Positions 25,673 through 64,000 of a stretch of 64,000 nt of DNA are shown here, in pieces; position 1 is the first letter of the stretch, and each line of letters begins with the position of its first letter. This DNA is from Bimastos eiseni (taxonomy: Eukaryota; Annelida; Clitellata; Crassiclitellata; Lumbricidae). The stretch covers positions 21,210,854 through 21,274,853 of the forward strand of contig OY365813.1 of assembly GCA_959347315.1 (NCBI GenBank). The letters are read 5' to 3'. The notes beneath the pieces are model-generated. The model was not told the origin of the DNA. It made no database searches and saw nothing but the letters and a program-made list of their open reading frames with translations. A program made the position numbers and the translations under genes.

Positions 25673-26380
25673 ATTTTTCACGGCTTAACAGGTAGCAATA
25701 ATAATAATAATTTGTTTCNNNNNNNNNNNNNNNNNNNNNNNNNNNNNNNNNNNNNNNNNNNNNNNNNNNNNNNNNNNNNNNNNNNNNNNNNNNNNNNNNN
25801 NNNNNNNNNNNNNNNNNNNNNNNNNNNNNNNNNNNNNNNNNNNNNNNNNNNNNNNNNNNNNNNNNNNNNNNNNNNNNNNNNNNNNNNNNNNNNNNNNNNN
25901 NNNNNNNNNNNNNNNNNNCTTTTCTCTGCCTCTTGCAGATTCATTGTGTTCTGAAGATGTGTGCTGTTGTTGTTATAAGCCCTTGATATATAAACTAATA
26001 TATATATATATATATATATCCTTTCAACTAGGAATATCCTGACAATCCAGTCATATCCATGACTGGATATATATATATATATATATATATATCCAATCAT
26101 CGCTCCGTGGGCTCGTTGCTCGTAGATGTCCAATGCTTTTTTAACAATTTCCTTCCATATACATTTATATATATAAACTATATGATTATATATATTATTG
26201 TGTAAATATATTTATGCGAATGATCATTCATTATTGCTTGTTGCCCAACCGTCAGGTTTTTGCAAGTCTCTCAAGTCTTTCTTCTTTAGTCATGACTTGG
26301 CTGGGAGCGCTTCTGAGTAGGTTCTTGAAGGGGTGCTATATAAGTGCTAATATCCTGACAATCCAGTCATATCCATGACT

Positions 26381-32922: not shown

Positions 32923-35815
32923 TCTCGTCTATTCCTTTAAACCGCTTCAACATCAAACACAACCTGACTATATTTTGATGATGTTGCCGACGAAGGTATA
33001 ACTGACGTCAAAGCGCCACTGTTCCACAAACTTTATAGCATGTCTAGGAATTCAACTTAGATATTTTATGCACTTAAATCGCTGTCAATGTTCATAAATT
33101 GAAACTGATAATTATATTTATTTCTTGAAAACCAGATGCCCATCATGGGTAAATTATAATTTTAAAACAAACTGAAAAGAAGCAAAGTGTATGCGAGCAT
33201 AATAAGCTATGGTGCAGCATCTTTCTATATAATCTGTTTATAAGTTCATCACTGATATCATTGTACTGGACTATTGCACTTAAAACTTTCAACACAGAGC
33301 AATAATTGTAGCATATGACAATGACCAGAGGCGCCCAGATAGGGGAGGGGTCCGTAGGAAATGCCCTCAATTTCTTGCAGAGGGATATGATGCCTTCCTG
33401 ACACTTGGGACTGGGGGCTTGCCATCATCACTCGGAGAGGATTGACGATGACAGTTTCATTAGAAACACACGACGGCTGCTTGCCTACAAATTAATTGCA
33501 ATCTACAACTGAACCTGAATAAAATGTATTACTGTCTATCAAATAGATAGTGCACAATGAATCCCCATCCAGATGGCGGCTTCTTTCAGAGATATGAACC
33601 TCGAAATAGCACGATCTTCATACTAGCTTAGGCCTAATTGGTCCTTGGGCCTAAATAGAAGAGCACTTTACTAGATCAACGTTTATTTTGTAATCCTGAA
33701 TGTCTGGATTTATTATTATTCCTTTGGTTGTTATGTTGTTTTGGATTATTGAATATTGTCTATAATCCTATACTATAAATGATGTACTGTTAGTATTAAA
33801 TATTACTTGTTAACATTTATATAGATAGTTTGACATTGATGTTATGGAATTGTTTTGATGCCCTGTATATGAGATGGAAAAAAACCTTCATGGGAAAAAA
33901 ACTGAAATAAGAAAAGAACCGATACGGTCAAAAAAGAACCTTCATGAACAAACAAGAAGCTATATGGCCACATGCATAAATTTTACATATGTATGTTTGT
34001 ACATTGTATGTATATATATATACATTTATACAATATGTATGTTTATATATGTTGGAATTAAATGTAATAATCATTTATATGTTATGAAATATCTACAACA
34101 ACCACATGTCGAATTTTGCTGTCTCAGCAACCAGTCATGCAGAAATGGAATCAATAACAACACAAAAGGAAGAAAGAAAACAGAAAGACTAAAGAAAGAA
34201 AGACAACATAAAGATAAAGGATTAAAACTATATACGAAATTGAACTGAAATGTGATAAATTCTGAAGACGTCAACAGCCTGTGCTGCTATAAGATGTCGT
34301 TAAACTGTTGTATAATAATAATAGATCAACGGCATGGTGGTAGTCATTGGGCTATTGAATTTGACATTAAGGAACTCATAAGTCATAACTCCTTGTTTGA
34401 CATATGTATTAATTTAAAACAAATCTAATCGGAACCTCACCCTAATGGTTTTGTCTTTATTTGTTGGATTTATAAGTAATTATTAGCACTGATCATCTTT
34501 ATTTTTAGCAACAGAATGTTTTAACACCGACACCACTCGGAGACTGCGTCAGACGGCGTCTCCCACCAACTTCGCCTAGCGGAAGTACCTAATATGAGGA
34601 TTACGACGAAAAAAAGATGATTTTTTTAAAATTCAACATTATAACATGAATTAGCAACCAATGAAATTACAACCTTGCTTTGTTTTAAATTAGTCTGTGT
34701 GGATAAGCTCATCATAGCCATGTAGAAGCAAGGTATTTGGGTGCTTTCAAAGTAACGTATTAAAGACCAACTGCACATAGTGCACCCTAGTGTGAGACCT
34801 AAATTTCCAATGCGCCATGCACGGCAACTTGGACTCTTAAAAAGATTTTAAAAATTAGTAAATTTTTTTATCATTAATAGATTAGTATCGACTAATATTT
34901 AAAATAAATTGTAATCTAAACATAACGTCGACCAAAGTTAAGTTTCTTAATGATTCATTGGTTGAAAACACTTCTATAGCGGCTCCCTGCTGTGCATATT
35001 CAGAGGCGGTTCCGGCACACCCTCTGTGAATGAAAGCATTATATTTTGTGCGTGACTAGTGTGAAAATCTCTGCACAACCTTTTGCACATGTGCACTCTA
35101 AAAACCTACAATTTCTTATAATTGTGCATCATGAGGGTCTGTTAGTGTCAGGTTAAGCGTCGTGAGGGTTGGTTAGGGTCTGGTTAGGTGTTGTGAGGGT
35201 CGTTTAGGGTCGGGATTAGGTTTAATGTAGTTTTTATAAATATACGAAAATTCATCTTACTTACTCTTTTGTGTCAATCACGTGCAGGAAATATTTTGTA
35301 CTGACCAGTGGCAGCAGATCAAAAGATCAAAATATTATGCGTCAATTGGAGTTTCTGGAACTATAAGTAAGCGGAAGGTGCATGCAGTGTCCCTGATAAA
35401 TAGAACATTCGGATCTAAATGGTGGCAGTTCCAAGCGGATGAAAAGGCACGAAGTTACATGTCAAAGTGCAGGTAAATGGATGTAGGTTATTTATTTCAC
35501 CTCTAGGTGTGGAATGAAGATTTCTGTGGCCATAGCTATTTATAGTGGGCATGATAGCCTCATTAATAGGCAGAGACAATTTGTCAACTGGTTTCGTTAG
35601 AAGCAGGTTTGTTTGTATCTGAATCCATTTATTTGCTGCACACTACACACACATGTGCAAATATATTCTTTCCATCTTTATGTTTTGATGTGCTATGCAA
35701 GTTGACTGAGAAGTCTTTCGAAATGGTGCTATATACAGTTTCAATAACCATTACAATTGTGGAATTGTTTCAATTGTTGTTGCAGCATCACACATCGAAT
35801 CCACGCGATGTCTCC
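32923..35815. other. intergenic region between divergent SGPL1 and MFSD3
   Basis: Mostly AT-rich DNA without recognised genes. It should hold both promoters, but no clear core element was seen. Items: purine-rich GAAAGAAAG stretch near 34150..34220, degenerate TTAGGG-like DNA at 35130..35215, and an open stretch 35287..35471 bounded by cag and gtaaat. The last could be a 5' untranslated exon of MFSD3 but shows no protein similarity. Confidence 0.5.
35130..35215. repeat. degenerate TTAGGG-like repeats
   Basis: Words GTGAGGGTTGGTTAGGGTCT, GGTTAGGTG, GTTTAGGGTCGGGATTAGG in about three ~30-bp units. Resembles decayed interstitial telomere-like repeat or a simple minisatellite. Confidence 0.5.
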
Positions 35816-38800
35816 ATGATGCTTCCGGTGACAGGCAGCGTTCTCCTGCTCATGTTCCTCTACTTCATTCAGGGCCTTCCGTACGGTCTCCAGGCCCTAT
35901 TCCTCCCAGTCTATCTCCGCTCGAAGGGGGTCGACCTCACAGACATCGGCCTGCTGAAGATCGTCTACGCTCCATGGTTGTGCAAGTTTATCTGGGGCCC
36001 TTTGGTGGACCAGCTTAGCACCAAACGCAAATGGCTGTTGATCAGCGTTCTCTGTCTCGCAGTAACGTGCGTTTTTGGGGCGTTCTTTCCTCCGGACATC
36101 CTAATCCCAGTCGTCGTTGTTCTCTTCCTCCTCAATCTCTTTGCCTCTATCCAGGATGTGGCAGTTGACGCGATTGCCATCCGGCTGCTGACCTCTGAAG
36201 AACTTGGTCAGGGCAACACCGTGCAGGTCGTCGGCTACAAGCTAGGGTCGATATTCGGGGGCGGAATACTTGCGTCGTTTGTTCACGTCATCGGATGGAT
36301 GGGGCTGTTTCTCGTTCTTGCGGTCTTGTACGTCGAAGCTGGAATGTTCATTTACGTAGCTCCGGGTCTGCGAAACCTCGACGACCCTCGTCGGCCGAGC
36401 TCGAGGGCGAAGAACGACGAAGAACCAACTCACGAGAATGGCAATAATTTCGATTCGAGTTGCAGCGACGAAATGCACGGCCAATGCGATCATTTCATAG
36501 AGAATTTGGTTGGAAATAGTGTCACCACAGTTCTCGATTCGAAGGAATTGATACACGCGAGGCAGTCACGGCAGTCCTGCCACAGAGACGCATTTGCACA
36601 TTGCTCCGAATCAGCTTCTAGTCGGGAGTGTAGTCACTGTGTGGAGTCGAAACTGGAAGCCAGGGATCGCCTGGATAAGCTGGAAAGAGCAGGCGCTGAG
36701 TCGCCGAAAGTGGATGTGCGCAAATTTCACAATACTTTTCGACAGGTTCTAGACGTTCCCGGAACAATGTGGATGATGTCTTTTCTGCTCCTGTTCAAAT
36801 TAGGTGCGGTGTTTCTGCTGTAATTTTAGATTGGTATGGCATCCAAAACCAATATAGTGCCCCTTCAAGATATATACTCAGAAGTACTCTCTGTGCTGGC
36901 ATAAATAATGTTAAATGTCATAGTGAACAAGTAAAATACATTTGTTAGCAAAACTGCTCAGTAAGCCGAAAAGAGTCACCAGTGGTGGGCACACGCACAA
37001 GTTTAGAACCAACCAACGGATTCCCGTCGACAACTGACAGATCATTAATGGCATGGATGTTCAGAGTCTCTGGGCCAAGTTGTGTTGATAGGGTATAGAT
37101 ATCTGGGTTGTTTAAAAAAATGGTTAGCTTAGTCTTCTTTATGCAGTTGTTTTAAATCGGTTTTAATTTTAACCAAGAATGGGCCAGGAGCTTTAGTGTC
37201 AGAAAAAATCTCAAGACACTATTAAAGATATTTTATGCATGTAGTGTAGTCCAGGAGCAATTGGACCTAAAAATATGTCCCATGGCGGAATTAGTGATGG
37301 AAAGATGCGGTTGGTGTCATTGTCTTTGTCTGATGGTGAAAATTCCTAAAATTTATGGTGTGTGTCGTCCACCCCTGCAGTTAATGTTCAGAGATTTTTG
37401 AAAATTCCTTAAACCATAAGCCATACCTTAGACACTAAAATCACCTGTCTATCAGAGATATTGTGACATATATTTCACGGCGGTTTTTTGGCCGCCATCA
37501 GACTAGTGTTTGAGCAGTTCTGGAAGAGGCTAAAGAAGTGTCTTGATGCACAAGAAAATTAAAAAACAACAACTAGAATTTATTGAAAATTATTAAAATT
37601 TATTATGGAATAATCGTATTGAATAATTATCATTTGTATGATTATATGTACTGATTTATCTTTCATTTTGTCAAATGATAATCCAAGATATGAATGAATA
37701 GGCATAGTATGCACGAGTAGGCCACCTACTTTTTCCTGTACTTCATCTTTACACAAATCGCAAAATTAGCAAACAGCCCACTAAAATCAGGCCACATGTT
37801 GAACAGCATGATGTTTTATCTATTTTCTAAATGCGCTGAATGTAACCTAACTCTGCCACTGTTCGCTTTCTGGCAGTGCCAGTCTCAAGCCTGGATAAAG
37901 GAGGAGGAGGGCGATGATGATGATCTTTGTTGTCACACAGTGTCGTCAAACTGCAACTATTACCACCACCTAAGTCGGACAATCTAGACCAGAATCTGGT
38001 TTTGTTATCAGTTTGTTTGATGCTAATGGCATTTTTTTTCTTTTGCATTCAGGAGAGCAGGGTGCACTGAACATGCTGCCATTGTTCTTTCTTGACAAGA
38101 AAGTGGAACCATCGGAGGTGACCTTCTGGACGGGGGTCGTCGGTCAGGGAGTCTCGATCTGTGGCTCAGTCCTCGGAGGTTGGTTTGTCACGGTCTACAG
38201 GTGAACTTCATTTTGCAATATTCCCACATTTCTGTATGAAATTTCTACTGTGTGCTAAACTTTTATTAATATGACACAGGTCTGTTTTTATCGATTGTTG
38301 TGTGCTAGACGATTGGTTAGAGCACTCGGCTTGCAATACAGTTTTTTGTGTGCCTAGGAGCTAGGACTTAGACTGCCTTGACCCAACACTAGTCTCTTAT
38401 GCTGTTGTGGGTCCATTTACTTGGAATGACCTTGTTCCATCATCTAGGACTAAACTAATGACTGGCTTCTCTTCTTCGGCTTCTCACTCTTTAAAGAAGC
38501 TTCTTTCTACCCGGGGTTTCCGTGCTGAGAGCGCCTCTGAATAGTTATTCTGTGAGAGAGCTATATAAATCTAAAGATAAAGCATATGAATGTTTTGGCA
38601 TTTCCAGACAGTAATCTTGTAGATAACAAATCTAGACATCTTTAGAATGTTTTTACATTAATTTGTTTAATTGTGTTCAGAATTTGAATGCTTATACATC
38701 GTGGACATTTATATAGTTTTGGCTTCTGTGGCCGCTCTGGTATCTCACAGCATTCTTGGCTGTGCTCCATGTTAACTATGCAACTATGCAATCCCTGTCG

Positions 38801-40137
38801 CCCAGTCTCCAATGTTGCAGCTGCAGCACACTGTGGAGTTTGCCCTGCGACGAGGGGTTAACTTCTGGTTCCACGGCTTGCCCGGCTGCTAGGCAATGCC
38901 GATCTTTCTCGGCTGTCGGCCCCTTCTTAGGGATGAATTCGAATTAGAATTATGTTCACTGCTCCTACTAATCCAACTGTGCTTTGATCACGCATATCTT
39001 TTTCTCATGTTGTGGCTGGGAGCACTCCTGAGTAGGTACTAACAGGGGTGCTATATAAATTCTCAAAATGAATGGATGAACAGTGATTTGCAGAATTTCT
39101 TAAATGTGCTAGATATATTGAATTGACAATTTGCAACATTTAAGCAATATGATAAGTTTGTAACACACTGGGAAAGGTGTTCCTTGAACACCCACAAACA
39201 TTGTAAAACAATGTCTGGTCGTTTCTGTGTTAAATGTAGGAGGATTCCGCTAGACTTCATGCTGCAGCAGCTGTGCCTGCTGCGGCTGCTGCCAGTCGGT
39301 GCTCAGCTGCTCCTGGTAGTCATCTGGGATGTTGGACACCTCTACAGAGAAGTCCTTTTTTGTTAGTGGTACAAATAAAAATTCATGTTTGCTATCTCGA
39401 CAAAGAGGCTCTTTTCTGTTAGTTGTGCCACTAAATATTCATGTTTGATATCTATACAGAGAGGCTTTTTCTGATAGTGGTACAAATAAAATATTTGTCT
39501 TGGATATCTATACAGAGAGGCCCTTATCTGGTAGTGGTACTACTAAATATTCAGGCTTGATATCTATGCAGATAAGTCCTTTTCTTAAATGGCACTACTA
39601 AAAATTCATGTCTCATATCTCTACAGAGATTTTCTGTTTGTGGTTTAGTCTGTCTGTTTGTGGTGCTACTAAAACTTCACGTAGCTTTGTTTTGCTGTAA
39701 GCCTGATTTGTGGTAGTTTAGTTTCACTGTGAGCCTGATTCGAGGTAGTTTTGTCGATTGTAAGCTTGATAGTTGGTAGTTATCATGTTGTAGACGTGGC
39801 CATGGTTATGCTGCTGTTACTTCTACTCATCAGTGGAATTATTACCACAGTCACATTCACTTTCATGATGCATTGTTCACGGTCGGCGTCCGTCGACATT
39901 CAGGCCACCCACTACACGACGCTGGCAACGGTGGAAGTGCTCGGCAAGCTCGCCTTCACGGCGGCCTGCGGATGGTTCGCCGATGTCTTCGGCTATCGGT
40001 TCCTGTTCCTGTCCTTTGCAGCACTGTCTGTGATTGTTTTGCCTCTGCTGAAGGCATGTCCAGAAGAGATTACTTGTTTGGAATCGGTGTCAGATCCTGA
40101 GCAGGAACCAAGCGACGTAAGGGATAAGGCCGAATAG
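35816..40137 (+). CDS. MFSD3: MFSD3-type major facilitator superfamily transporter
   Basis: A multi-pass membrane protein related to human MFSD3 and more distantly to the acetyl-CoA transporter family. The transported substrate is not established. Exons 35816..36803, 38053..38200, 39240..39361 and 39794..40137 join in phases 1, 2 and 1 to give 533 residues (412 in human). Family blocks: YFIQGLPYGLQALFLPVYLR (first helix), IVYAPWLCKFIWGPLVDQ, NLFASIQDVAVDAIAIRLL, GNTVQVVGYKLGSIFGGG, then FKLGEQGALNMLPLFFLDK and GIITTVTFTFMMHCSRSA..IQATHYTTLATVEVLGKL. About 120 residues (187 to 307) between helices 6 and 7 form a hydrophilic, Cys/His-containing loop absent in human. The start is taken at the Met pair before LPVTGSV, after a tgcag acceptor ending at 35785 that suggests a 5' untranslated exon. 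The donor at 39361 (gttagt) and acceptor at 39793 are inferred from phase and are the weakest junction. Confidence 0.9.
36842..36895 (-). repeat. LINE-like 3'-tail repeat in MFSD3 intron 1
   Basis: The minus strand reads GAGAGTACTTCTGAGTATAT then TTGAAGGGGCACTATAT, the common tail also seen at 41085..41150, 38985..39075 and 42790..42870. Confidence 0.6.
37850..37962 (+). repeat. ~95-bp interspersed repeat, family R2
   Basis: Well-preserved copy, CTGGCAGTGCCAGTCTCAAG through CACACAGTGTCGTCAAACTG, in MFSD3 intron 1 just before exon 2. Confidence 0.85.
38290..38585 (+). mobile_element. SINE/LINE-derived segment in MFSD3 intron 2
   Basis: Starts with a tRNA-like head (GTGCTAGACGATTGGTTAGA, then GCACTCGGCTTGCAATAC), followed by a LINE-like 3' region (GGGTCCATTTACTTGGAATG) and the tail CTGTGAGAGAGCTATATAAA. 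Confidence 0.5.
38985..39075 (+). repeat. LINE-like 3' tail
   Basis: GTTGTGGCTGGGAGCACTCC, TGAGTAGGTACTAACAGGGG, then TGCTATATAAATTC. Same tail as in the arms of the inverted duplication at 25309..26350. Confidence 0.65.
39335..39650 (+). repeat. ~65-bp minisatellite starting inside the end of MFSD3 exon 3
   Basis: About five units containing TCTACAGAGA(A/G), a T-rich stretch, (G/T)TTAGTGGTAC-like and AAATATTCATGTTTGATATC-like words. The first unit overlaps the last 27 coding bases of exon 3 and its predicted donor gttagt. Later units repeat near-copies of this boundary within the intron. Confidence 0.75.
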
Positions 40138-47670: not shown

Positions 47671-48117
47671 AAAAGGTGTGCGAAATGATTCGAATTAAGT
47701 CCATTCACATCAGTCGAGATGGTGATAGTCCGAATTCTTTTATAAGGTTTAACAGGTCTAACAGCGGCGACTTTAGGGAATTTCTTCTCTGTCAATCAAA
47801 ATAATGTCCTTATTCGGTGAGCACGCAAAGGTTCATAGTCGAATGGACCGAGTCACCGTCGGTAGGCCCTCACAAACGCATAGAACCTAGGGCCAATGGC
47901 GTTTCGTCCATGATTCTGCTCCTATTAATATTCATCGTATTCTTCAAAGGGTCTGTCGTCACGTAGTGAGTGGTTGAAGAAACACATTCCCTAGAATCGA
48001 TGAGCCTATGCAAATCCAGAATTATACAATGCAATACAATATATGCTAAACAAAATGCATGCGTTAATGCATTTACGGATAGGACATGTCTGCACCAAGA
48101 ACCTTTGTTATCATACA

Positions 48118-49765: not shown

Positions 49766-49868
49766 CCATTGACTCGAGTCACTCGACGGATGGGGTGTAA
49801 TCAATTAGAGATGCACTGTATTGTACTGGGGCTTTTTTAAATGCGAGTAGTGGCTAAGAAACCCTTAC

Positions 49869-49962
49869 CCGTAAACGACTGCTGACATTTTGTCTGGAGG
49901 TCTTCCTTCGTAAACGAGTCCACTGCTGTCAATTAGATAATGGTAACCGATATCGAGCCAAC
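49869..49962 (-). pseudogene. isolated PGRP exon, partial paralogue
   Basis: A 94-base exon after a caacag acceptor and before gtaagg encodes WLDIGYHYLIDSSGLVYEGR then PPDKMSAVVY. This is the central segment of a peptidoglycan recognition protein (family text WxDIGYNFLIGxDGxVYEGRGW). It starts in phase 1 and ends in phase 2, exactly as the homologous exon 58695..58593 of the HEPN-PGRP gene. The splice sites look usable. No convincing partner exons were found on either side between 45 and 57 kb, so it is probably a remnant of a tandem duplicate. A functional gene with diverged exons is not excluded. Confidence 0.75.
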
Positions 49963-50059
49963 CTGTTGACAGAACGGACTATTTTAGTAATACATTGTAT
50001 GCCAATGTTTTGGATTGGAAACGCTGAGATGAGGGTACGATCTGGGTCGATGTAAAAAT

Positions 50060-56440: not shown

Positions 56441-56962
56441 TTTAGCATTACGAGATGGGCAGTGGAGGAGTTGAATTGAACAAAAACCGCTAAATATGAT
56501 TAATCTAGTTTGCAAAGTGAAGCATGCAACCCAAAACGGAAAAATGTTAGCAGCCAAGTGATTAGCTGCAGAATTATGGAAATTGAGTTGTTAGGTCATG
56601 TGAACATGATGAATTAAGTGTCTCATCGGGATTAATATCAAAGTTTTAGCTAAATACGGAAAGAAATCATATTCAATCAAATAAATGTGTATAAGAAATG
56701 TTATTCATTGTCGATTGTCACAGTTACAGAGACTCTTGTCATCGTCAAACAACGAACGTGTTCTTTGTGCTTCTGCTTAAACATGTCGTATTCGCTCTCA
56801 AGACATGCAGCTGCTGCCGTTACGGTAGGCCTGTGTTTAAAAGAAACAACACAATACAGTCTCAGACACTGAAATGGAATTGTTATTCCTCGGCAGAACC
56901 AGAAAATCACAAGTCAGAGATCAGTGGTTATAATATAGACTTACACTATCCAAGTCATAAAC

Positions 56963-57358: not shown

Positions 57359-60300
57359 TCAGAGCCCGATTTTCAGAGGGTTGAAGGTGGCAGGGTAGCC
57401 GTTAAGGCGGGTGTCAACTTGATTCGACAGCTGGATGGTGTGAGTAGGCGAATCGGCTAAGAGTCCTTGAAGGGGTGAGACTTTCGTTTCAAGGGAAAAG
57501 CTCGAGAGGTAAGGGATTGAAAAGCGCACCCAGGCGTTCATCATATTTAATTGAAAGAACTCGTGAATAATTACCAAGTGATGTTTGATGTGTGGATACT
57601 GTCTCGCGTCCATCGCCTTTATCTTCCGGTACAGATTGATGCCAGGACTTTTGGTTTCAAGGATTTCGCACGCTGCATACAATTGAAAGTCTTTTTTGAG
57701 GATCTTCAGGGAATCTTCCAGATATTCGAGCAGTAGATCGAAGGCAGCCAGCGCTGATGTTGTCGGTTCCCCGTACATGAAGTTACCGATCAACGCGATG
57801 CTTGTGTATTCAGTGTAGTTAGACCTGTTGATGAAAGCACGACAGAATAACCGTGGAGACACAAAACAGCGTTGATACATTGACGTTTGATAGGGAACAA
57901 TGGACATTGAAATGGAGCAGACGTGTCACCTCTTATCTCAATCAATCAATTAATGAATCGTTGAATGAATGACTCAATCAATCATTCAATCTGTAAATCA
58001 ATCAAGCAACTAATCAATCAATATTAATAATAAAAAGGATTAAATTTCATTGTTACCCTACAGTGGAGTAATTACAAGGCAACTTTTGATACGAACCATT
58101 AAACAGTTTCATTACCTCTGGCTCTGTGATATTTAGACAACTAAAAAGGATGTTAGTTAGACAATTTAAAAAGATACAGTTTCGATTCTTAAGGAGCATT
58201 CCAAGGATTCTTTAACACATCAATCAGTCACTGGCAACCCCTCCCTCGTCCGAAACTCGACGAATTTCTGTTCGACGCACACTTTGCCATTTGGCAAATT
58301 GGCCGGATGTGCGTTATAAATACTGAACGAGGAACAAGAAAGATATTTCATTCACGCTGCACCTTGCAACCCCGACACCATGCCCATACGGAGCCCATAT
58401 AGGGCCCATGCTCCAAAACGGGACCCGTACAGAGTCAACATGGTTCCCTCTAATGCCCGTTAAAATGTGACAATCGACAACGAATAACGATGCGAGGACT
58501 TCAAACGTTAAGCAGAAGTTGGTTGACTATGAACTTTTGGATTGTAATTTCTATCACGTGTAGCTAGCTACTTATTGTTAAGGAAAAATTACCTAAGACG
58601 AGAGCCAGGCATCGTATTAGGAGGGCGACCATCGTAGACGTATCCGTTGCGGTCAATCAGATAATGATACATGATATCCACACGACCGCCGATCACTGCG
58701 ATGTCAAACACGTAGCAATTCAGTAGTAGGCCTAGAGACTATACTCTAAATTGGAAATTGATAAGCGTGTATGGTTGTACGTATATGTGTCGTGTATTCA
58801 AACGCGTGTATGCATATGTGTATGAATGTATGTATGCATATATGACCTGTATGTATGTATGTAGGCCTGTGTGTTCATTCATTTAAAGTTTTATATTGCC
58901 CTTTCTATGTAACTGCTAAAAATTGCTCCCAACTCCAGGGCAAACAAAAGTTTTCAAATGGCCATAAAAAGCACTACTTTGTGATTTATGGAACAGGCAC
59001 AACTCCAGGGAAAGGTCATTCCGAACTTTGGCCTTTCACAGAGATTGAACGCTGGGAAATGTGTGTACGCATGTATTTATAATGTATTTGCATATGTACA
59101 GTACATATACTCATGTATGCATGTATGTGTGTATGCATGCATGTATGTATGTATGTATCTATGTATGTATGCGTGTCTGTATGTATTTACACGGTGATTC
59201 ATTGAAAAACGTACCTTACATAGGTTAGCATAACTCAGGTAAATGACCATTAATTTTAATGAAATTTCAGAATAATGATGCTTGATATTCTATTCAAGTG
59301 CTACATAAATCATTTGACACACCAAGCTAAAATGACGTAACGCGATTGACGAAACTAATGACGTCACGAAAATATCGCGAAAAAATGGTGTTTACCGAAG
59401 AGGATAAACAATTTGTTACATTCTTACGAAAGAATAAAAAGTACAGTGCAAAACGTTTTCTAAAGAAATTTCCTGATAAAGAGTGGACTCTTGGTGGATT
59501 AAATGCGTTACTTTCAAAGATCGACAAAACTGGGTCTTTCCATCGTCGACCAGGCAGCGGCCGCCCGCGTACGGCAGCAACAACCGACAATGCTGAAAAG
59601 GTTGAATCGCTGGTGCTCAGCCAGGAAGATATGCCGCAAACGCATCGCACACAGAGACAAATTGCTCGAGAAATAGGAATCAGTCAGACATCAGTTTGGA
59701 GAATTGTCAAGAATGATTTACAGTTGCGATGTTTAAAGAAACGACACGCTCAAGAACTCACAGCAGCCAACAAGCAAGCAAGATTGACACGTTCCCGTCA
59801 GCTACTGAGGTTGTATCCTGCAAGCTTAGTGAATTTCATTTGGTTTACTGATGAGAAATTGTTTACTGTGGCAGCACCCAGTAACAGTCAGAATGATCGT
59901 ATTTACGTTTCAGCCGGTACAAGGAAGAGAGACGTTCCAGCAAATCGTCTTTTGCGGACTCGACCAACTTTCAGCAAGTCCCTTATGGTATCTGTCGGGG
60001 TATCTGCACTCGGTCGTACGAACATCCATTTCATCGAACCAGGTGTTAAGATTAATGGACAATATTACAGAGATGTTCTACTAATGCAGGGTCTCTTGCC
60101 TGACATTCGTGAGATAACGGAGTATTTCATCTTCCAGCAGGATAGCGCTCCTGCGCACAGAGCTCGGGAGACCGTTGCGTTACTCGAAACTGAAACACCT
60201 GATTTCATCCCGCCTAATTACTGGCCACCTAATAGCCCTGATTTGAATCCAGTGGACTATAAGATATGGAGCGTCATGCAGGAAAAAGTCTACAGAAATC

Positions 60301-61403
60301 GAATACATGATGTCGACGAGTTGCGTCACCGAATTGTGGAGGTATGGGATGAAATGGATCAGCGCATCATTGATGAGTCAGTCAGGCAGTGGCGTAGGCG
60401 TCTTCGCGCGTGTGTTACTGCCCGAGGGGGTCAATTTGAACATAAACTGTAACTTTCTTCCTATTCAGAACTGATTCCTCTATGTTCACTTAAAATTTTT
60501 TTGACATAAACCGATATTTGACGGAGTTACAATTAAATATCTAGGGGTACGTTTTTTAATGAATCACCGTGTATATATGTACGAATGTCAATGTGTGCAT
60601 GTATGTATGTACGAATGTATGCATGTATTTATGTATATATGTACGTGTGTATGTATGTATGTGTGCCTGTATGTACGCATGTAAATATGCGTGTCTGTAT
60701 GTAGACGTGTCTCTATGTATTTATGTATGTATGAATGTGTGTATGCACTGGTGTATGCAAGTGTACTTATGTACATATTTAATTATTCTCTTCTTTCCTG
60801 TTAGTCAACCTTATACGCCCCTAAACACCTCAACTCACTCGGCCTCTGATGAAATGCATATTCAACTGTGAAACGATGCATAGTTACACGAACTCACTGT
60901 CGGGATGCATATGCAGGATCTGGATGTTCTTCACTTGACTGCAGCAGTCCTGCGTGACGGAACACTCAGTCACTTCTGCCGTGTGGCCGTAGAAAACAGT
61001 AGACACTGGAACGTGCATATATTTGTACACTCCCGATGGAGGAACAGCACCCCAGGCGGAACGAGGAACGAAATGGATCGCTCCACTTCCACCTAAGAAG
61101 AAGTGGAAAAATTAGCTAATACAAGAATACGTAAAAATGATAATAATAGTAATAATAATACTACTAATAGTAATAACAATAATGATACTAATTATATTAA
61201 TAATAATTTACAATAACTTACAAAAAATTACAATAGTAATAATAATAATAGCGGTAGAAATGATTATGATAATAATAGTAGTAGCAATGATGCTGATGAT
61301 GACGATGTTGTTGTTGTTATTGTTGCTGATGATGATGATAATGATGATGAAGATGATGGTGGTGGTGGTTGTGGTGGTGGTGGTGGTGATTATGATGATG
61401 ATG

Positions 61404-61464
<61 letters not shown>

Positions 61465-61602
61465 AATGATGATGAAGATGATGGTGGTGGTGGTTGTGGT
61501 GGTGGTGATTATGATGATGATGTGATGATGATGATGATGATGATAATGATGATGAAGATGATGGTGGTGGTGGTTGTGGTGGTGGTGATTATGATGATGA
61601 TG

Positions 61603-61641
<39 letters not shown>

Positions 61642-61674
61642 CGACAACGACGACGACGATGACGATGTCGACGT

Positions 61675-61737
<63 letters not shown>

Positions 61738-61761
61738 CGACGACAACGACGATGACGATGT

Positions 61762-61843
<82 letters not shown>

Positions 61844-62982
61844 CATAACTTTCGTTTTTTTTTAAACTGACAAACCGCGGTAGGATTACATGTACAGTAT
61901 GAACTGATCTCTCACATGAGTTGAATTTTACTGTCGGCAGTCAAGCAAGGCGCATTAACCAACGTTGACACCTAGGACTAGTCAACCTTACAGGGGTAGG
62001 GGTCTACGGGTATCGCGCTCAGTTCCTTAGCTCAATTTTTTCTCATTTATGTTCCCCAATGTGCGAATAGTCAATTGATATAATAAAGAATGTTCTAGTT
62101 CAAAGCATTGCGTCATTTTTTAGACAGAAATAGTTAATGGACCCTACCAACGATTTGATATCTGACGCCCTTTTCACACGGGGATTCCTGTCTGCAGCTC
62201 ACGACGTTCGTTACGATCAGCAACACGAACATCACGACCCCCACAGCACCAAGGATCCGATAAAAGCGACGCCGTCCGTCCAGCTCAGCCCTGAGGACGT
62301 CATTCATCTCCCGAAGGACCTGCTCCTTCACTTGGATCTCCAACTCCCTCGCGGCGCTGCGATCCAACTTCGCGGTCATGTAGCTCTCGAAGTCAACGGA
62401 AGCGTCGAGGCGACGCAGGGCCGCGGATACGAAGTTCCAGAGCTCCCAGAACGTTCCGTCGTCGAGTTCAGGTCGCTGGAGATGGAAGAGTCTATTCCGG
62501 GTGAGACGGATGCGGATGACGTCGTGGTACCATTCCTCCTGTCCTGGAGAAGGCGGATGGTCGTCATCTTTCCAGTTGATGACAGTTCCTTTCGGCGAGG
62601 TGGTAAGATTTCTTGCCAGGACACACCACAGGGTCATGTCTATGGCCGCGAGGTCGCAGGTACCGTATTCCGGGTAGAGTATGGCCAACTGGTGAGTATT
62701 TATCACCGACCGAGGCCCTTTGTTCAGCGATCGTATCTTGGTTTCCATGAGTCGTAGAATCGTGTGTAGCGTCTGGCCATTTGGCAGCCGACAGAGAACC
62801 GTCTTTCGAATCGCTCTCGTGCCTTCGATCATCGTCAGTTTTACGAGACGAAAGTAGTTCCTTGCGAGTTCGTCTTTGGCGTACGGTAGCTCGTTCATGT
62901 TCAAATTAAGCATAGGATGACTGCTACTTATACAGTGTCTGTGCAGTTTTAGCAGTCGAAGATCTACCTCAATACAGTCCAC
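57359..62982 (-). CDS. predicted type II membrane receptor: DZIP3-like HEPN domain, transmembrane helix, PGRP domain
   Basis: Four exons join in phase: 62982..62148 (phase 1), 61092..60898 (1), 58695..58593 (2) and 57824..57359, giving 532 residues. Residues about 40 to 215 match the DZIP3-like HEPN domain: NYFRLVKLTMIEGTRAIR, INTHQLAILYP, DMTLWCVLARNL, then RNRLFH with Arg162 and His167 of the HEPN Rx4-6H motif, and ELDDGTFWELWNFVSAALRRL-like text. A basic RRR (237 to 239) precedes a helix at 243 to 262 (ILGAVGVVMFVLLIVTNVVS), predicting the N-terminus inside. Residues 286 to 455 are a PGRP domain: FVPRSAWGA, HTAEVTECSVTQDCC, ILHMHPDMIGGRVDIMYHYL, DGRPP, TSIALIGNFM, ETKSPGINLY. Zinc ligand His315 remains, but the GHRDV His is Ala429 and the Cys is Ser437, so amidase activity is unlikely. 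About 75 residues follow without a known domain. The start may instead be Met24 or Met29. Expected role: microbial sensing at the membrane, as insect PGRP-LC; this is inference. Confidence 0.85.
58770..59188. repeat. TATG-rich microsatellite pieces
   Basis: ATGT repeats at 58770..58865 and 59070..59188 in intron 2 of the HEPN-PGRP gene. The mariner element sits at the end of the second. Confidence 0.8.
59190..60571 (+). mobile_element. Tc1/mariner-type transposon, DD37D class, apparently full length
   Basis: 1382 bp. The 26-bp terminal inverted repeats at 59190..59215 and 60546..60571 differ at one position and begin CACGGTGATTCATT. They are flanked by the TA target duplication (59188..59189 and 60572..60573). 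It carries one intact transposase frame. It is inserted in a TATG microsatellite in intron 2 of the HEPN-PGRP gene, opposite to the gene's direction. Confidence 0.95.
59346..60452 (+). CDS. Tc1/mariner superfamily transposase (DDE_3-type), DD37D
   Basis: 368 residues, uninterrupted, cutting and pasting its own element at TA dinucleotides. The N-terminal DNA-binding part has a helix-turn-helix near residues 18 to 62, the GRPR hinge (GSGRPRT, 71 to 77) and a second helix-turn-helix with QIAREIGISQTSVWRIVKND (105 to 124). The catalytic part shows Asp169 in FTDEKLF, Asp266 in QQDSAPAH and Asp304 in SPDLNPVDYKIW. The spacing of the last two is 37 residues, hence DD37D, unlike the DD34E of Tc1 or DD34D of classical mariner; DD37D is known from the maT lineage. 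The start may be Met5 or Met14 rather than Met1. Intact frame plus near-identical ends suggests recent activity. Confidence 0.93.
   Translation: MTKLMTSRKYREKMVFTEEDKQFVTFLRKNKKYSAKRFLKKFPDKEWTLGGLNALLSKIDKTGSFHRRPGSGRPRTAATTDNAEKVESLVLSQEDMPQTHRTQRQIAREIGISQTSVWRIVKNDLQLRCLKKRHAQELTAANKQARLTRSRQLLRLYPASLVNFIWFTDEKLFTVAAPSNSQNDRIYVSAGTRKRDVPANRLLRTRPTFSKSLMVSVGVSALGRTNIHFIEPGVKINGQYYRDVLLMQGLLPDIREITEYFIFQQDSAPAHRARETVALLETETPDFIPPNYWPPNSPDLNPVDYKIWSVMQEKVYRNRIHDVDELRHRIVEVWDEMDQRIIDESVRQWRRRLRACVTARGGQFEHKL
60571..60780. repeat. ATGT microsatellite, continuation
   Basis: The microsatellite interrupted by the mariner insertion resumes here with TGTATGTACGAATGTATGCA-type units. Confidence 0.85.
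61125..61855. repeat. ATA/GAT/GAC trinucleotide microsatellite with higher-order repeats
   Basis: Begins AAT-rich, becomes (GAT)n and (GAC GAT)n. A ~75 to 110-bp unit containing GATGAAGATGATGGTGGTGG and TTGTGGTGGTGGTGATTATG occurs three times (near 61345, 61465 and 61550). A GACGACAACGACGA..GATGACGATG unit occurs twice (near 61640 and 61737). It lies in intron 1 of the HEPN-PGRP gene, 30 bases upstream of exon 2. Confidence 0.95.
61866..62045 (-). mobile_element. SINE family A copy
   Basis: Minus strand: GAGCTAAGGAACTGAGCGCG, GATACCCGTAGACC (B-box region), CTTGCTTGACTGCCGACAG, TTTGTCAGTTTAAA tail. Lies in intron 1 of the HEPN-PGRP gene. Confidence 0.75.
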
Positions 62983-64000
62983 TTACTGAGAGTTCCACGC
63001 TTATGGATGTCCAAAATGTTCTAGGAATACATTCAGCCTTTTGTCCCGTGGGATGATTCTAGTAAGATGTAACGCTTTTTGGTATTAAATCTGTGTCTGT
63101 GCAATTTTAGCAGTTAAAGAACAACCTGTAGTTAACGGATAGAAAGTTCTACGCTTACGGATGTCCACAGTGTTTTAGGAATAGGCCTACATTCAGTCTG
63201 AGGTGTTGGGTAATCCTCCTATACACGTAACGATGGCTGGTAGGCCTATATGCTGCAATATAACTTGAGCTCACACTAGTTTCCACAGAATAACGTTATA
63301 CACAAAACATACGCTTTTGGAAGCTGTTCACGGTTAAGAAAATAATATAATATGAGTTATTACCAGATGCAGCGACAGTTTGGACAAATTGTTCGTGATA
63401 GGGAAAGAGAAACTTCTTTAGTAGGTATGGCTCATAAACAATAAGAGTAGCCGGAATATGCATTTGATATTATAGTCTTTGTAGACCTTTTAGCCCAATT
63501 GTGTAAGTTTTGCGCTTAGATTGATTTAACAGTCCCCGAAATAGCTTGCAACGGCACACACTAAGGTCTACGTGGATCCTATTCGATAATAATTAGCGGT
63601 GACATGGTTACTCAGTAATAGTCAATAATATATGAAAGAATATGGTTCATAGCTGAATATGTTGTCAGTTTAACAAGCCAACAATGGGAGTAATGGGAGT
63701 GAAGTGGTAACAGGGCACGACCATGAGCAGAGGCGCTACTAGGGGGTGCGGGGGGATACCAGGGGGCGCTCAAGGATAGAAAAGTTGACCCACACAATTC
63801 ATTAAATTCCGTTTAGTTTTTATTCTTTTTTGAAGGAGAAGGGTATATGGGTGCTTTCAGTACGCTGCGTCACGTCTTCGGAATTTGCCATAGCTACATC
63901 TGAGATCCCGAGGAAAAATTGTTCTGGTTGCTCCTCTGACCAGGAGAATGACAGTGAGATACAATCCCTCAAAAACATTTAATTATAATTATAATCTATC
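62983..64000. other. upstream region of the HEPN-PGRP gene, no gene seen
   Basis: Should hold the promoter of the minus-strand HEPN-PGRP gene. A segment is duplicated: CTGTGCAGTTTTAGCAG..TTCCACGCTTATGGATGTCC (62940..63015) resembles CTGTGCAATTTTAGCAG..TTCTACGCTTACGGATGTCC (63098..63170). No TATA box or other gene could be assigned. Confidence 0.5.

Follow-up and report, generated by a model that had tools for sequence, protein, structure and literature searches.

The window studied here, the whole 64,000-nucleotide stretch of Bimastos eiseni contig OY365813.1 from position 21,210,854 to position 21,274,853 (GenBank GCA_959347315.1, an assembly of 660 Mb in 118 contigs), carries a minus-strand gene that joins a HEPN domain of the DZIP3 type (HEPN_DZIP3), a membrane helix and a peptidoglycan recognition protein (PGRP) domain. 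Its features, numbered from the first letter of the window, are the following.

62148-62913, minus strand: exon 1, coding for the predicted cytosolic HEPN_DZIP3 domain, the membrane helix and the start of the predicted extracellular stalk; phase-1 donor at 62147.
62359-62775, minus strand: HEPN_DZIP3 domain (Pfam PF18738), residues 47-185.
62482-62499, minus strand: RNRLFH, a putative Rx4H ribonuclease (RNase) motif, residues 139-144.
62200-62256, minus strand: single hydrophobic helix (Kyte-Doolittle), residues 220-238.
60898-61092, minus strand: exon 2, start of the predicted PGRP ectodomain, with the first zinc ligand H292 retained and cysteines 299, 305 and 306.
58593-58695, minus strand: exon 3, PGRP core strand DIMYHYLIDRNGYVYDGR.
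57575-57824, minus strand: exon 4 with corrected end, remaining part of the PGRP domain; second zinc-ligand position A406, third S414.
56798-56830, minus strand: exon 5, newly proposed, final ten residues AYRNGSSCMS followed by the stop.
57359-57574, minus strand: last 71 codons and stop of the original prediction, probably intron 4.

Rebuilding the gene from the sequence gave the same four minus-strand exons as the original prediction, with GT/AG sites, phases 1, 1, 2 and one open frame (exon 4 starts at 57824). The junction between the HEPN exon and the first PGRP exon was also reproduced and reads ...RYQIV-G-GSGAIHFVPRSAWGA. With the fifth exon the introns measure 1,055, 2,202, 768 and 744 bases. 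No runs of N are present at 56.5-64 kb; the sole one in the window lies at 25719-25918.

A Pfam check of both domains, suggested by the original prediction, gave a divided result. HEPN_DZIP3 was recognized well above its cut-off in the window model (1.6e-17, 64.1 bits for a cut-off of 27), but Amidase_2 remained just below (7.8e-5, 23.4 bits for a cut-off of 26). Amidase_2 exceeds the Pfam cut-off in two related proteins, P0001 and P0004, found when about 5.8 billion predicted proteins were searched. The search returned seven matches, two with both domains, two with HEPN only and three with PGRP only. P0001 (60% identity, 452 residues, longest contig 1,836 bases) and P0004 (49% identity, 447 residues, longest contig 2,014 bases) each carry both domains in one frame. 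These contigs are too short to hold genomic introns and therefore probably derive from spliced RNA, directly or by way of a copy. PADLOC matched none of three proteins, NCBIfam gave no match for P0001 and P0004, and the 18 pattern matches obtained in viral_contigs included no relative.

Two profile searches enlarged the set of HEPN-only frames and gave no further protein with both domains (2 of 18 matches each). In the second one, 16 of the 18 matches are HEPN only; 12 of these reach the helix and four (P0021-P0024, 167-193 residues) stop before any helix. The DZIP3-type HEPN domain of the receptor also occurs without receptor context. The 12 HEPN-helix frames, which come from other sources, lose homology at the same glycine, which is the position of the phase-1 donor. 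The residue after this glycine is K in five frames and E in four, as expected if a GTAAR or GTGAR donor is translated, and M, T or G in the remaining three. Such a shared end point argues for one common phase-1 donor of the HEPN-helix exon, and the donor holds also in frames only 37-40% identical.

The same architecture is repeated elsewhere in the genome. A search with PF18738 scored 10 candidates and yielded nine loci, all over the cut-off: one in the window and eight in a tandem array on contig C16, at 954-1023 kb. In the C16 region analysed (945,000-1,034,999), tblastn delineated eight copies that carry exons 1-4 in this order. It also matched a stretch with HEPN alone and a HEPN fragment. 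Every one of the eight copies has donors and acceptors matched for phases 1, 1, 2 and a phase-0 donor that closes exon 4. Seven are stop-free, and the eighth, g3, has one stop. No copies were found by tblastn in the 20 kb upstream or the 10 kb downstream of the window; further receptor copies may exist in the genome. The additional HEPN stretch, in which the arginine has become tryptophan, and the HEPN fragment lie on C16 from 945000+41796 to 945000+45592. They lack PGRP exons and are apparently decayed copies.

The window alone offers splice-site evidence only, and its Amidase_2 score is below the cut-off. Both points would be compatible with two neighbouring genes or a mis-joined model. Against this stand the uninterrupted frames of P0001 and P0004, the identical exon order of the eight C16 copies, the donor common to 12 frames and the small size of intron 1, just 1,055 bases. 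The two-gene model was rejected on the both-domain proteins, the shared donor and the C16 copies, and we consider it hardly credible. The same evidence makes very unlikely a separate start before 61092, the case of two genes that the original prediction had kept in view. Its proposal of one HEPN - membrane helix - PGRP gene is thus borne out by the P0001 and P0004 frames, the C16 copies and the shared donor, and the presence of this architecture in one protein is near certain.

The two ends of the protein were revised. The length of 532 residues originally given runs from stop to stop, starting at 62982. When the first ATG, at 62913, is taken as the start, that model has 509 residues; relatives such as P0003 start at the second ATG, 62898. 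At the other end, the frame had been followed to the stop at 57359. The last of the four exons instead probably ends at 57575, where a phase-0 GT donor (57574) comes directly after ...HIKHHL. The homologous donor ends exon 4 in all eight four-exon C16 copies. Use of this donor with exon 5 leads to a protein of 448 residues (443 from the second ATG), to be compared with 452 and 447 in P0001 and P0004. The C-terminal 71-residue stretch of the original model has no counterpart in P0001, P0004 or the C16 copies and probably corresponds to intron sequence. Exon 5 supplies a sixth conserved cysteine (446). Exon-5-like tails of the form x-[HY]-x-x-...-C are present in 7/8 C16 copies, with none found for g8; they were chosen by eye and score among 18-26 candidate acceptors per gene (170 in total). 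Based on the lengths of the relatives, the C16 donors and these C-terminal cysteine tails, the original C-terminus was rejected and a fifth exon preferred.

Exon 1 alone matches PF18738 at 4.1e-18, and a Pfam HEPN match was obtained in the six C16 exon-1 frames scanned (6/6). A search with Foldseek gave no match for the HEPN fold. In a phylogenetic tree of the HEPN domains, window-type and C16-type sequences form two cleanly separated clades (100/100); one row, P0021, is long. Alignments of 14 and 17 rows, made of HEPN frames from several sources, reveal that R139-N140-x-L142-x-H144 is invariant. Within the genome, Rx4H is kept at seven of the nine loci; the arginine is replaced by W in g4 and by K in g6, both on C16. 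The motif, intact in most copies, gives the domain the look of an RNase.

This domain is followed by one hydrophobic segment (Kyte-Doolittle maximum of 2.70 over 19 residues), with no second segment above 1.6. The charge rule favours an N-inside orientation in the window gene but not in C16-like frames. Cysteines 246, 299, 305, 306 and 407 are found in 11/11 proteins and cysteine 446 in 10/11, the exception being g8. On the HEPN side, no cysteine is conserved across all 11 proteins. The domain order, together with the restriction of conserved cysteines to the region after the helix, suggests a type II orientation, with HEPN inside and PGRP outside.

Assignment of the second half to the PGRP family relies on several searches. 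Comparison with PDB sequences using phmmer gave 25 distinct matches at E <= 0.001. One of these is named CG14704 protein and the other 24 peptidoglycan recognition protein, with PGRP-LF as the top match (9.6e-19). Search for structural similarities with a model of P0001 (Foldseek, E <= 0.001) revealed 43 matches, 36 to PGRPs and 7 to related amidases or endolysins. In the PGRP tree, none of the nine inner branches is well supported. C299 and C305, beside helix 1, are invariant in all 11 proteins and align with the cysteine pair of amphioxus PGRP3. We take them to form the PGRP disulphide.

The zinc site, in contrast to that of amidase-type PGRPs, is degraded. The first ligand, H292, is kept in 9/9 loci. 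The second histidine is replaced by A or M, and the zinc cysteine by S, again in 9/9 loci each. In PGRP-LB, from which residue roles were also taken, a C160S change is reported to abolish zinc binding (PMC8124813). With two of three zinc ligands lost, the PGRP half should bind its ligand without cutting it, that is, act as a non-amidase binder. A genome search with PF01510 identified 15 other PGRP loci, none of which adjoins a HEPN locus; the PGRPs linked to HEPN escaped it, their exons being split. A pattern search (about 3.2 kb each) retrieved a GH...CPG motif at 5 of these 15 loci. The HEPN-linked PGRPs are thus a non-amidase group, alongside which this animal also seems to possess PGRPs of the amidase type.

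The alignment further shows that ligand-groove loop residues differ from those of ordinary PGRPs, and an additional cysteine pair, 407/446, is conserved. Both features would suit an ectodomain whose ligand is not peptidoglycan but a different glycan or a molecule of the host. We regard this as rather unlikely, since the PGRP fold and core are retained overall and exons 2-4 are constrained.

Constraint was estimated from the ratio of non-synonymous to synonymous substitution rates (dN/dS) between the seven stop-free C16 copies, giving 21 pairs that are not mutually independent. Values range from 0.25 to 0.52 for exon 1 (median 0.34) and from 0.21 to 0.39 for exons 2-4 (median 0.31). By this measure, constraint clearly acts on the HEPN half and the PGRP half alike. 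This bears on the idea of a decoy or tolerance receptor, in which the PGRP half, like PGRP-LF, would soak up ligand or dampen a different PGRP pathway, possibly with respect to resident bacteria. PGRP-LF, the best PDB sequence match, reportedly blocks PGRP-LC signalling. Annelid PGRPs are also described as highly expressed in symbiont tissue (PMC8476170). A decoy would nevertheless have no need of a constrained cytosolic domain, and the low exon 1 median and the retained motif make it improbable.

These data place both domains and a single hydrophobic helix in one multi-copy gene family, with Rx4H kept at seven of nine loci, zinc ligands lost and both halves constrained; orientation, ligand, clustering, RNase activity and RNA target are what we infer beyond this. 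Our favoured reading, to which we give about an even chance (roughly 0.5), is a type II surface receptor that senses bacteria outside without cutting and whose clustering pairs HEPN domains into an RNase inside. The C-terminal PGRP domain would bind peptidoglycan or a related bacterial ligand outside the cell without cleavage. Receptors would then cluster on the ligand, or a disulphide-linked dimer would be released. Two cytosolic HEPN domains could thereby meet, their Rx4H motifs building one composite RNase site. Host RNA might be cleaved, with its local decay, an arrest of translation or the death of the cell as the outcome, or cleavage might start a signal. The receptor would work like IRE1 with its topology reversed and a bacterial sensor replacing the misfolded-protein sensor. 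Two kinds of precedent, combined by analogy, suggest clustering outside, pairing inside and RNA cleavage as the likeliest mode of action. In Csm6, and likewise in IRE1 and RNase L, two HEPN domains contribute their Rx4-6H motifs to a composite site (PMC4748810), and PGRP-LC multimerises upon ligand binding (PMC2483946). This anatomy agrees with the earlier suggestion, in which an effector or adaptor on the inside is triggered by sensing on the outside.

The main rival keeps the receptor but gives the HEPN domain the role of scaffold or adaptor, recruiting partners for signalling instead of cutting RNA; it owes this rank to the two copies without the arginine. Loss of the catalytic arginine at 2/9 loci whose exon-1 frames are still open speaks for an adaptor. 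PGRP-LC likewise signals through a cytosolic interaction motif (PMC2483946). On the other side, the invariance of Rx4H in 14 and 17 rows exceeds what a scaffold would need, and 194 of 202 DZIP3-type HEPN proteins of the pearl oyster are reported to retain Rx4-6H (PMC9646362). We hold the adaptor to be less likely than the RNase. Returning to the RNase reading, its most specific form is an IRE1-like surface RNase receptor, present as a tandem family in annelids, that would couple peptidoglycan sensing to cytosolic RNA cleavage in one molecule, with no kinase, adaptor or transcription factor. This form is tentative.

Other elements lie within and around the gene.

59189-60572, plus strand: mariner/Tc1-like element inside intron 2, with an open 373-codon transposase frame at 59331-60452 (DDE_3, 1.1e-7) and matching terminal inverted repeats.
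49868-49963, minus strand: remnant of a second paralogue, a lone exon 3 with splice-like ends, nearest to P0004 (90.6% identity over 32 residues).
47967-48005, minus strand: remnant resembling the C-terminus of P0004, with an in-frame stop; tblastn E of 0.084 and 84.6% identity over 13 residues, weak when taken alone.

No HEPN exon, exon 2 or exon 4 of the second paralogue was among the matches listed. Long GAT/ATC-type triplet repeats (61130-61870) occupy most of intron 1. Inspection by eye of the region directly upstream of exon 1, at about 62930-63210, showed two stretches that resemble each other, each about 150 bases long; they could represent a duplicated promoter or 5' exon. A membrane-transporter gene is located on the plus strand at 35570-36823 and 39739-40137 (MFS_1, 7e-23; Acatn, 2.9e-13). 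NCBIfam places it nearest to the AmpG muropeptide transporter family (1.2e-32, 113 bits for a cut-off of 350). Located about 17 kb from the receptor, it is possibly a peptidoglycan-fragment transporter; the proximity may be a coincidence. Rfam and tRNA scans of the window found nothing.

The original prediction had pointed to echinoderms, hemichordates and lancelets, but mitochondrial gene order identifies the animal as an annelid, and an echinoderm origin was rejected on this ground. The mitochondrial genome corresponds to contig C118 (15,339 bases), on which COX1 was identified by family search and the other genes were recognised by eye from their frames. On one strand they follow the order cox1, cox2, cox3, nad6, cob, atp6, nad5, nad4L, nad4, (rRNA region), nad1, nad3, nad2; a repeat region separates atp6 from nad5. 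Precisely such shifts are described as the annelid pattern in PMC2639372, which puts the control region of Clitellata, Maldanidae and Terebellidae between atp6 and nad5. COX1-like stretches also occur on nuclear contigs C1-C17 (35 matches in all), several of them full-length with TGA as the only stops. They may be large recent mitochondrial insertions or assembly joins.

No paper reporting a HEPN and PGRP fusion was found in searches of open-access literature aimed at this combination, though one may be in print elsewhere; this is in line with the original remark, by which the domain order is not known to have been described. For echinoderms, too, no PGRP fusion of DZIP3 or HEPN was found there. 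No such fusion appears in excerpts of PMC3710099, PMC9334734, PMC9646362, PMC8260672, PMC8195603 and PMC7773633, the last naming HEPN in a reference only, and the word peptidoglycan is absent from the main text of PMC3710099. The DZIP3-type HEPN fusions listed in the latter involve TPR, Zn-ribbon, RING, ankyrin, CARD, NACHT, DEATH and LRR.

Several known systems share part of this organization. Insect PGRP-LC has an N-terminal cytosolic part, one helix and a C-terminal non-amidase PGRP domain, and multimerisation driven by ligand is its known trigger (PMC2483946), but it signals through a RHIM-like motif, whereas the window gene has HEPN_DZIP3 with an RNase motif. No RHIM family was among the Pfam matches of the window model at E <= 1, although Pfam may miss RHIM-like motifs. 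The closest published case is that of the membrane PGRPs of the annelid Olavius algarvensis. OalgPGRP1, 3 and 5 bear 'novel cytoplasmic domains' unlike known sequences (PMC5117596). Rpi5 of Ridgeia piscesae is another annelid PGRP with a helix and no signal peptide (PMC3372519). The cytosolic parts of the OalgPGRPs and Rpi5 may or may not be HEPN. The amidase residues are complete in OalgPGRP1 and 5, and OalgPGRP3 has four of the five (PMC5117596), unlike all nine loci here. In cnidarian and mollusc NLR-like proteins, DZIP3-type HEPN serves as the effector part of an immune-type receptor (PMC9646362, PMC8260672, PMC9334734). There, sensing is intracellular, by NACHT and repeats; here, an extracellular PGRP domain would act across the membrane. 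IRE1, which spans the membrane, and RNase L join a sensor to a HEPN-type (KEN) RNase that needs two protomers (PMC4748810). The window gene differs in having no kinase-like domain, another HEPN family, a bacterial-type sensor and, relative to IRE1, a reversed predicted topology. The likeness to IRE1 and RNase L is one of logic, not membership.

The multi-copy, constrained receptor architecture is real and was not found described in the open-access searches; its function we can only propose. Transmembrane PGRPs outside insects have cytosolic parts without assigned function, as stated for an annelid (PMC5117596). In the receptor family described here one such part can be named, a HEPN domain whose RNase motif is intact in most copies. 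An active domain would let a single protein couple the sensing of bacteria to the decay of RNA, and would place DZIP3-type HEPN effectors at the cell surface. For animals that host bacteria at high density, it is also a candidate for the switch that decides between tolerating and killing them.

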